Shown one piece after another: positions 16,948-25,767 of a stretch of 32,802 bases of DNA. The DNA is from an uncultured Gammaproteobacteria bacterium (lineage in GTDB: Bacteria > Pseudomonadota > Gammaproteobacteria > GCA-001735895): positions 1 to 32,802 of the forward strand of contig CALDDP010000047.1 in NCBI GenBank assembly GCA_937936805.1, given 5' to 3'. The notes under the pieces were generated by a model. That model saw only the letters and a list, made by a program, of their open reading frames with translations. It was not told the origin of the DNA and made no database searches. Every line of letters starts with the position of its first letter. Positions within the stretch are counted from its first letter, which is position 1. A program made the position numbers and the translations under genes.

Positions 16948-18183
16948 ATGATCGAAACCAGAATACCGGATATTTCTACGCTGCGGCGTATCAAGGTGAC
17001 TTCCGAGTTACCCGAGAACCACCTGATAGCACTCGCCAATCAGCTTGAAGTATTTACTGCCCGAAACAAGGAGTTACTGCTTGAGATCGGTTCGACCGAA
17101 AAGACCAGTCTCTATATTATCAAGGGCAAAGTCTCGCTTAACGCCAGCGATGGCAAAACAAGAATCATAACGGTAGACGAATCCCAGGAATCAAGGCCCG
17201 TCGCTCAATTGCGACCTTGTATCTATGACGTAACAGCGCTTGGGCCTGTCGACTATATGAAAATCGATACCCAGCGGTTCGTTGATTTCGCCCAGCTAAC
17301 CGAGAGCTCCGTGACTGATATCAGTGTGCATTCCCTGTTCAGCGATGACGAAGAAGACGATTCCATTGTTAACCATCTCTACCATAACCTGATGGACAAA
17401 AGTATCCTGCTGCCCGAATTGCCGTCGGTGGCTGACCGGATTCAACGGATTTACAACGGTGAATCTACCGATATCGATGCCATGGCGCACATACTGATTG
17501 CTTATCCTGACGTTGCCCGAAAAATCAAGAATGTGGCTCGCTACGCCAAGAATTATGATATCGGCGCGACCGAAAAAACCCGCCGTTCCATTGAACAGCT
17601 GGGGGTACTGGCCGTGTACTGTCTGATCATGACTTACGCGGTCGGCAAGCTGGTCAAACGCCTGCCGGAGAGTCATTTGCGGCTGGTTGTTTCGTTTTGG
17701 GACCACAGCCTGAATGTCGCTGCGATCAGTCGCGTCCTGGCAAAGAAAACCAGGCTGGTTTCACCTGATCTGGCAATGCTGGCCGGCCTGGTTCATGGCA
17801 TCGGTGTGCTGGTCATTGATGATTTTTTATTACAACACAATAACCTGATGCTGGATCATCTCGAAATTGACCATGCCGTACAGGTGATGCGCCCCGAAAT
17901 TTCCAGCCTGCTGCTACGCAAATGGAATTTTAGCGACGATCTGATTTTAGTGGCGGAAGAGTGCGGCGACTGGTCGCGCAACAAAGAGGGTGAAGCAGAT
18001 TTATGCGACCTGGTTCTGGCCGCGAATTATCTCGGCCTGATGAAGAATGACAAAAATCATTCTCTGCCACATGTCGACACTATGCCCGCAATAGCAAAAC
18101 TCGCTATATCGCCTGAAGACAGTATTAGTGCAATAAAGGAAGCGTCGGTAGTGAGAAGAAATATTAAAAAATTGTTCAGTTAG
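16948..18183 (+). CDS. cyclic nucleotide-binding-like domain + HDOD protein
   Basis: N-terminal cNMP-like beta region 'TARNKELLLEIGSTEKTSLYIIKGKVSLNASDGK', then HDOD 'LPELPSVADRIQRIYNGESTDIDAMAHILIAYPDVARKIKNVA...FWDHSLNVAAISRVLA...MLAGLVHGIGVLVI'. Confidence 0.8.
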   Translation: MIETRIPDISTLRRIKVTSELPENHLIALANQLEVFTARNKELLLEIGSTEKTSLYIIKGKVSLNASDGKTRIITVDESQESRPVAQLRPCIYDVTALGPVDYMKIDTQRFVDFAQLTESSVTDISVHSLFSDDEEDDSIVNHLYHNLMDKSILLPELPSVADRIQRIYNGESTDIDAMAHILIAYPDVARKIKNVARYAKNYDIGATEKTRRSIEQLGVLAVYCLIMTYAVGKLVKRLPESHLRLVVSFWDHSLNVAAISRVLAKKTRLVSPDLAMLAGLVHGIGVLVIDDFLLQHNNLMLDHLEIDHAVQVMRPEISSLLLRKWNFSDDLILVAEECGDWSRNKEGEADLCDLVLAANYLGLMKNDKNHSLPHVDTMPAIAKLAISPEDSISAIKEASVVRRNIKKLFS

Positions 18184-23859: not shown

Positions 23860-24528
23860 TCAGAGTCGAATAAAACGCGCCGTCAGTGAATACTTGTATA
23901 TCAGCTGCAGGAAAATTCGCAATGCAAGCAGCTGGTATGCGTCGAGCATGTAACGCAACCACGGGTTTCTATTTTCAGGTTGCTGCCACAGGTAGGATGA
24001 CACGAGCCTGCCTGGTTCACCGGTTTCGATCGACGCCATCGCATCACGGTATTCGGGACTGGCGTCAGGGTGCGATCTGAGGCCCTCGGTAATAAACCCG
24101 AGGTATTCAATGGTGGGTTTCAGATCCGGGGTAGAGCGGTTGGTCTGATAAAAATACAGCGTCTCCCCGTCTTGCTCGACGACAGTGCGCCGGTACCTGT
24201 TGACGACCGGAACGACCTCGTAAAAATCCATGCGTGCGGCATCCCTGACGGAGAGAGTGTACAGAAAGCCGTGCACTGACTCACCAGGCGCAGGTTCAGC
24301 CGAGGCATAGCCGCAACCATCCCAGGGCGCGGGATGATCAAAACGCAGACCATAATCCCGTAGCGTGAAATGCCTGGTCGCAAACGGGGTGATCCGCCGT
24401 AGCTGCATTACGGCATCGCTTAGATTGGCACCGAACGCCAGATACTGAACCTTCCCGGATCCGTGTCCAAACAGGCGCTTGATGTTATGGACTTCGAACA
24501 ACAGTCTCCAGATCAGGTAACGAATCAT
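23860..24528 (-). CDS. gamma-glutamylcyclotransferase-like protein
   Basis: 'VQYLAFGANLSDAVM', 'LRDYGLRFDHPAPWDGCGYASAEPAPGESVHGFLYTLSVRDAARMDFYEV' matches GGCT-fold proteins. Confidence 0.78.
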   Translation of the reverse strand: MIRYLIWRLLFEVHNIKRLFGHGSGKVQYLAFGANLSDAVMQLRRITPFATRHFTLRDYGLRFDHPAPWDGCGYASAEPAPGESVHGFLYTLSVRDAARMDFYEVVPVVNRYRRTVVEQDGETLYFYQTNRSTPDLKPTIEYLGFITEGLRSHPDASPEYRDAMASIETGEPGRLVSSYLWQQPENRNPWLRYMLDAYQLLALRIFLQLIYKYSLTARFIRL

Positions 24529-24663: not shown

Positions 24664-25767
24664 ATGAAACGACAGCTCGCAGCGATTCTGTATGCCGATG
24701 TAGCTGGTTACAGCCGCCTTACCGGTCAGAATGAGGAACAAACCCACCAGCTATTAAATGAGGCGCTGACCTTGCTAACCGAGGCGATTAGCACGACTGG
24801 AGGTTCCAAGGTGCATGAGGCGGGAGACGCGATACTGGCCGAGTTTCCCAGTGTGACAGAGGCAGTCGATTGCGCATTCGGTTTTCAGAAATCGATGGTT
24901 GGCTGGAAACCGGATCTGCCCGAAAACGAGCGCGTCGAGTTCAGGATAGGTATTCATATCGGCGAGGTCATGCGTGACCGCGGCGACATTTATGGCGATG
25001 GAGTCAACATCGCGGCGCGAATAGAAGAGGTTGCGCAAGCTGGCGGGTTAAGCGTGTCGAGTGCAGTGGTTGAGCAACTGGCATCCGCTAGTAAATATAA
25101 TTTTGACGACCTCGGCTATCGCAATTTCAAAAACATCGACAGGCCTGTGCATGTCTACCAGTTACGGTCCTCTGACTTACTCGGTGGCAACCCTATGCAG
25201 GATATCGAGCGGCGCGTCGAGCATCAGCCGCTGTTTGGCGATGCCATTGAAAAACCGATCGTTACCACGGGCCGGTGCGTATGTGGCTCGGTCAGGTTTG
25301 AGGTAAATCAGGCAGCCGTTGGCACCGGCTTTTGTCATTGTCGGATATGCCAGCGTAGCACTGGTGCGCCCGTGTTTGCGTGGACGGCTTTTCCGCTTGA
25401 CGCGGTAAAGTTCAGTCGGGAAAAACTCAAGTATCACAGAATCTCATTAATTGCCGAACAGGGATTCTGTGAAAATTGCGGATCTCCCGTGGTATGGAGG
25501 AGTTTGAAACCCAAACCGGCAGATTACATGGTTATCGCTACCACCTGCCTGGAAAATCCCGAAGATTACGCGCCGACCTGGCATCAGGGGGTAGAAAGCC
25601 AACTACCCTGGCTGGAAATTCAAGACGATCTCCCCAGGACTCGAACCGAGGAATCGCCTATGCTGCGCCGTGCCTGGGCGTCAATGGGCGCTCCTGAGCC
25701 GGATGACTGGAAGGCGCTGGATTACGAGGAAGCCGAGCAGCTGAATGACGATCCTGAATCGCCTTAG
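24664..25767 (+). CDS. fusion of class III adenylate/guanylate cyclase domain with GFA/CENP-V-type zinc domain
   Basis: Cyclase: 'AAILYADVAGYSRLTG', 'AGDAILAEFPS', 'GIHIGEVMRDRGDIYGDGVNIAARIEEVA', 'DLGYRNFKNIDRPVHVYQL'. GFA: 'GRCVCGSVRFEV', 'GFCHCRICQRSTGAPVFAWTAF', 'GFCENCGSPVVWRS'. One uninterrupted 367-aa frame. Confidence 0.9.
   Translation: MKRQLAAILYADVAGYSRLTGQNEEQTHQLLNEALTLLTEAISTTGGSKVHEAGDAILAEFPSVTEAVDCAFGFQKSMVGWKPDLPENERVEFRIGIHIGEVMRDRGDIYGDGVNIAARIEEVAQAGGLSVSSAVVEQLASASKYNFDDLGYRNFKNIDRPVHVYQLRSSDLLGGNPMQDIERRVEHQPLFGDAIEKPIVTTGRCVCGSVRFEVNQAAVGTGFCHCRICQRSTGAPVFAWTAFPLDAVKFSREKLKYHRISLIAEQGFCENCGSPVVWRSLKPKPADYMVIATTCLENPEDYAPTWHQGVESQLPWLEIQDDLPRTRTEESPMLRRAWASMGAPEPDDWKALDYEEAEQLNDDPESP

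Follow-up and report, generated by a model that had tools for sequence, protein, structure and literature searches.

The question raised by this locus is whether one gene encodes a class III nucleotide cyclase joined to a GFA/CENP-V zinc domain and, if it does, what the second domain might do for the first. The open reading frame, which encodes 367 amino acids plus a stop codon and begins MKRQLAAILYADVAGYS, lies in a window of 32,802 nucleotides; this window, the whole stretch of DNA analyzed, is an entire contig (C47) of the 3.35-Mb draft genome, in 348 contigs, of an uncultured gammaproteobacterium. We consider the fusion probably a real sensor-to-messenger device and not an assembly error. 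To its more specific form, a soluble homodimeric class III adenylyl cyclase with the C-terminal GFA domain as its sensor, we would assign a probability of roughly 0.5. The sequences show that both domains are complete, conserved, and held by purifying selection, and that the GFA unit stays with cyclases of different origin.

A cyclase and a separate GFA domain in a single frame had been read from the letters of the DNA, and profile searches bear this out: PF00211 matches residues 6-165 (E 2.1e-15, 57.3 bits against a curated cut-off of 21.9) and PF04828 (GFA) matches residues 201-308 (E 1.7e-19, 70.4 bits against a cut-off of 24.3). The Pfam scan of the 367-residue protein returned no other notable match; a YHS/TRASH domain was not matched, the C-terminal domain being GFA. 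The NCBIfam matches are to cyclase families, all of them below cut-off. Table 1 lists the features.

Table 1. Features of the cyclase-GFA gene, in window coordinates
Feature	Position	Strand	Basis or remark
Cyclase-GFA fusion gene	24664..25767	+	ORF, Pfam, full-length orthologues
Class III nucleotide cyclase homology domain, residues 1-168	24664..25167	+	PF00211; phmmer and Foldseek to 3mr7
Asp12, metal ligand 1	24697..24699	+	in all fusions with sequenced N-terminus
His51, base-binding Lys position	24814..24816	+	residue table
Asp55, metal ligand 2	24826..24828	+	residue table
Asp108, base-selecting Asp	24985..24987	+	invariant in fusions
Asn115 and Arg119, transition-state pair (N-I-A-A-R)	25006..25020	+	residue table, alignment
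Linker, residues 169-199, P-L-F-like motif in gamma and alpha fusions	25168..25260	+	alignments, model
GFA/CENP-V beta-tent domain, residues 200-312	25261..25599	+	PF04828; 8ajq, 3fac, 1x6m matches
Cys205 and Cys207, structural zinc site, first half	25276..25284	+	invariant in fusions
Cys224, Cys226, Cys229 (C-H-C-x-x-C), three-Cys zinc site	25333..25350	+	invariant in fusions; PMC4682968
Cys269 and Cys272, structural zinc site, second half	25468..25479	+	Cys269 invariant; Cys272 is Phe in L039
C-terminal tail, residues 313-367, W-L-x-I-x-D-D-L-P-R-T-R motif	25600..25764	+	low model confidence

That the window comes from a 348-contig draft lends some color to the view that an assembly error or a frameshift merged two genes, and the original prediction had itself named a frameshift as grounds for abandoning it. 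Full-length orthologues in independent genomes rule this out. Six other genomes of the same genus carry the fusion at 61-68% identity with a matching start region, and another gammaproteobacterium, a Chromatiales MAG, carries it full length at 57%. The alphaproteobacterial full-length orthologues fall between 38 and 42% identity overall; they come from Pelagibius/Phaeomarinobacter MAGs (approximately 41%, with one near-identical sequence in two bins), from the isolate genome of Sulfitobacter sabulilitoris (39%), from a single-contig genome (G465, 38%), and from G840 (42%). Because the whole architecture and its start region recur in this way (in no fewer than 10 other genomes, one of them an isolate and another a single contig), we treat a merged-gene artefact as excluded and give it virtually no weight; the linker motif is also kept, and dN/dS is low on both sides of it. 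Between close congeneric pairs the cyclase half has a dN/dS of 0.01-0.06 and the GFA half one of 0.03-0.12; both are under strong purifying selection, while the linker is variable and evolves faster. In four of the sequences (L025, L026, L027, and L038) synonymous divergence is strongly unequal between the halves, the pair L025/L026 having a dS of 0.22 for the cyclase half against 0.88 for the GFA half, which suggests intragenic recombination.

The cyclase-GFA fusion is rare and recurs in distant bacteria. It is present in 7 of 24 genomes sampled from the genus and in 2 of 369 from the class (the source genome counted in both), in the source genome and 1 of the 397 others in a Pseudomonadota-wide sample of 398, in 2 of 385 alphaproteobacterial genomes, and, among 150 genomes of the G465 family, in G465 only; the scan of genome contigs used peptide patterns from one query, and the resulting count is a lower bound. 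Long open frames near other GFA matches, judged by eye to be untranslated extensions, were excluded from the fusion count. In plasmid records no place covered 80% of the query, and the best matches were to the cyclase half. The pairing had been described as not known to be an established architecture; consistent with this, we found no cyclase-GFA protein, and no description of such an architecture, in the open-license literature. Proteins of this kind have probably been deposited already under generic names.

The cyclase half retains the residues that the original prediction had ascribed to it: Asp12 and Asp55 for metal, Asp108 for the base, and Asn115 with Arg119 are all found, and a residue table of fusions and unfused paralogues has them in every fusion sequenced at those positions. 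With respect to the Lys and Asp pair that selects the base, Asp108 is present and the Lys is replaced by His51 in all gammaproteobacterial fusions, whereas the alphaproteobacterial fusions have Lys or Arg. Unfused cyclases, both in the same genome and in its relatives, can have His at this site too (L010, L012, L013, L014, and L050). Since unfused paralogues carry His and the alphaproteobacterial fusions Lys or Arg, the replacement is a trait of the local cyclase lineage and no feature of the fusion. We rejected the replacement as the mark of an unusual enzyme for the same reason: the change that had been pointed out is present, but it is not specific to the fusion protein.

The replacement of Lys had also been taken to leave the choice between ATP and GTP unclear. 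That Lys is indeed replaced, but the choice can be narrowed. In guanylyl cyclases, Glu takes the place of the Lys, and the second position carries no Asp (PMC4215837). Because His is common to the unfused paralogues, Lys or Arg is retained in the alphaproteobacterial fusions, Asp108 is invariant, and the fusions have no Glu where guanylyl cyclases carry one, adenylyl cyclase activity seems more likely than guanylyl cyclase activity. A guanylyl or dual cyclase arising through the Lys-to-His change could appeal to the fact that guanylyl cyclases differ at this position too (PMC4215837), but with Asp108 kept in all fusions, no Glu, and Lys or Arg in the alphaproteobacterial ones, we think it improbable.

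The closest solved cyclase by sequence is 3mr7 (phmmer E 1e-33), an adenylate/guanylate cyclase of Silicibacter pomeroyi whose solved chain has no GFA domain, followed by Rv1900c (1ybt) and Ma1120 (4wp9). Foldseek with the AlphaFold model, in which pLDDT is approximately 80-90 across most of the cyclase domain, returned 3mr7, the nearest by fold as well, at a TM score of 0.88 by target length and also matched 1ybt and 4wpa. In Rv1900c/LipJ of M. tuberculosis (1ybt, 1ybu) the base-binding Lys is likewise replaced, by Asn in place of the His seen here; its partner, a hydrolase, is N-terminal, whereas GFA is C-terminal in the fusion. In a divergent cyclase-like group (L017, L019, L020, and L099), Glu occupies the Lys site, and Thr and Val stand in for the base Asp and the catalytic Asn, respectively; these class III cyclase-like proteins are possibly inactive or altered.

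The GFA half was predicted to have intact Cys clusters, and seven zinc cysteines were found that match published ligands. C205/C207, C224/C226/C229, and C269/C272 align with C31/C33, C52/C54/C57, and C99/C102 of Paracoccus Gfa, in which C31, C33, C99, and C102 form one set of zinc ligands and C52, C54, and C57 the other (PMC4682968). The seven (CxC, CxCxxC, CxxC) are invariant across the fusions except in L039 (genome G021), where Cys272 is Phe, by sequencing error or true loss. That L039 is without Cys272 though the rest of its GFA half is still under purifying selection speaks against the sensor model. By profile the GFA half matches 8ajq (PA2722 of Pseudomonas aeruginosa; E 6.8e-14), 3fac, and weakly 1x6m, Gfa itself (E 0.011); Foldseek with a separate model of this half gave the same three as top matches, with cereblon-type domains as remoter ones, consistent with the published beta-tent grouping (PMC4287342). 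The linker retains a P-L-F-like motif in gamma- and alphaproteobacterial fusions alike (QPLFDD, QPLFSF, RPLFDM, RPFIDM, RGIFNF). It is poorly modeled (pLDDT below 50 at residues 175-195), and the AlphaFold model predicts no rigid transmitter helix in it, which also counts against the sensor model.

One could suppose that the GFA domain senses nothing and is a structural zinc module that aids folding or dimerization of the cyclase. Its zinc cysteines rank with the best-conserved residues of the domain and the linker is the variable, faster-evolving part, both as such a module would have it; yet the fusions never vary at the three-Cys site or at its His225, neither of which the structural zinc requires, and the scanned cyclase paralogues in the same genome manage without any such module. 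We regard this explanation as rather unlikely.

The history of the two halves is informative. Set against 46 other GFA domains, the 12 fused halves group as a single clade (support 100/99; 200 of 200 bootstrap trees), and adding the closest stand-alone GFA proteins, which a further scan had turned up, leaves this clade intact (SH-aLRT 97, as shown on the tree). In the cyclase-half tree the gammaproteobacterial fusions fall among gamma-type unfused cyclases and the alphaproteobacterial fusions elsewhere. Constraining all cyclase halves to one group is rejected (AU p 0.011), whereas the four alphaproteobacterial halves may form one group (p 0.54); the tree was built quickly from about 170 columns, and the grouping put to the test is not independent of the data. 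Gammaproteobacterial fusions and paralogues also share an H-[EY]-A-G-D-A motif and a cyclase domain one residue shorter than that of the alphaproteobacterial fusions. A single vertical origin of the whole fusion, which we considered, is disfavored by the cyclase halves. One GFA-plus-linker unit is, on these trees, paired with cyclase domains of different origin, and this therefore argues for functional coupling. We read this as a single ancient GFA fusion, with the cyclase domain exchanged later in the gammaproteobacterial line; alternatively, one GFA lineage may have been captured on two separate occasions. In both cases this GFA lineage either stayed with a cyclase or was joined to one again.

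What the coupling might be is suggested by two precedents. The AC-YHS protein of Mycobacterium phlei is a class IIIc adenylyl cyclase with a C-terminal YHS domain that is activated by copper: with Mg it is inactive until micromolar copper binds, other tested metals are no substitute, and the effect is not exerted through increased dimerization (PMC4626032). Like the fusion, AC-YHS has one class III cyclase domain, a linker, a small Cys-rich C-terminal domain of metal type, and no membrane part. Unlike it, the fusion has a GFA beta-tent of about 110 residues with seven Cys, in place of a copper-binding YHS/TRASH domain of about 50 residues with one Asp and three Cys, and a linker of about 30 residues instead of 8-11. 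The fusion may thus work like AC-YHS, by analogy, without being a member of that group of copper-sensor cyclases. The second precedent is Gfa of Paracoccus denitrificans (1x6m, 1xa8; PMC4682968), which has the same beta-tent fold and seven zinc cysteines but is stand-alone, longer, and weakly similar in sequence (E 0.011). This founding member of the GFA family binds glutathione, and crystallographic work led to the proposal that glutathione binding moves the three-Cys zinc; its proposed reaction was not accelerated on retest (PMC4682968). Because of that failure the name "formaldehyde-activating" is a poor guide, and because the similarity to Gfa is low, glutathione binding is not to be assumed for the fusion. 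Taken together, the AC-YHS and Gfa precedents make control of the cyclase by zinc, thiol, or aldehyde more plausible, and with the two combined, the GFA domain is most simply seen as a putative thiol, thiol-adduct, or metal sensor that tunes the cyclase dimer.

In such a device, two cyclase domains would pair head-to-tail and convert ATP to cAMP. The GFA domain would carry one structural zinc at C205, C207, C269, and C272 and one labile zinc at the three cysteines C224, C226, and C229. The labile site could be engaged by a thiol (glutathione), a thiol adduct (S-hydroxymethylglutathione), or a transition metal; the ligand would alter the packing of the cyclase pair and raise or lower cAMP, which would then act on one of the cell's cNMP-binding regulators. 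The genome has 14 PF00027 (cNMP-binding) matches over cut-off as candidate receivers. More narrowly, and only tentatively, we suggest that the protein may be a new kind of bacterial second-messenger receptor, its GFA domain directly sensing glutathione, a thiol-bound metal, or S-hydroxymethylglutathione as a sign of formaldehyde stress, and cAMP carrying the output.

A different division of labor would have the GFA domain act as an enzyme or carrier in thiol or aldehyde chemistry, with the cAMP of the tethered cyclase reporting or accompanying the reaction without allosteric control. Most GFA domains are found on their own, and genomes carry many copies (11 matches here, 7-19 in others), so they are functional without a cyclase; the genome also has a match to S-(hydroxymethyl)glutathione dehydrogenase far over cut-off, and the nearest stand-alone relatives carry the same C-terminal tail as the fusion. 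These are alphaproteobacterial GFA proteins of G787, G779, and G975 (L124, L125, L141, L146, and L149); neither they nor the surrounding stretches examined contain a cyclase. Set against this, Gfa did not accelerate its own proposed reaction (PMC4682968), and we hold the enzyme or carrier role to be unlikely, if still worth consideration.

Class III cyclases with a small regulatory C-terminal domain are a known kind; GFA as the partner is, to judge from the open-license literature, new. If the sensor reading is true, the GFA/CENP-V fold gains a signaling role, and the fusion becomes a ready reporter for the true ligand of a large, functionally unclear family, since cAMP from a natural cyclase fusion is a simple and sensitive readout with which to screen candidate GFA ligands. 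Should the coupling prove real, the known inputs of bacterial cAMP signaling would be widened by thiol, aldehyde, or metal status. Many further class III cyclases are encoded in the genome, their partners being mostly TPR, Trans_reg_C, or AAA domains, so that the fusion is one cyclase among many that differ in partner domain.

The surroundings of the gene give no hint of a pathway, which is a further point against the sensor model. The fusion gene stands alone in the window; a GGACT-like gene diverges upstream and an oligopeptide ABC transporter converges downstream. Scans for promoters and CRP sites upstream of the fusion found nothing above chance. The immediate neighbors are not kept near the fusion in other genomes, the GGACT-like gene included, and we dropped the search for an operon partner or pathway among them, the neighbors differing between most genomes. 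The GGACT/AIG2-like gene itself (23860-24528, minus strand; PF06094, E 3.9e-07) has a possible link to glutathione turnover. Farther off (16948-18183, plus strand) lies an HDOD protein whose N-terminal 120 residues, taken in isolation, weakly resemble a cNMP-binding domain (E 0.002-0.003, below cut-off). In G020 (L089) only about 0.6 kb separates its orthologue from the fusion, and in G021 (L086) about 5 kb; we therefore speculate that the HDOD protein could be a receiver of the cyclic nucleotide.

Two further arrangements of GFA domains were seen. A 283-residue open frame (G000:C103:95-871, L005) has two of them in tandem, and in one relative only (G003; L085, 5984-6343, minus strand), a small stand-alone GFA gene sits on the strand of the fusion, approximately 60 bases downstream of it.
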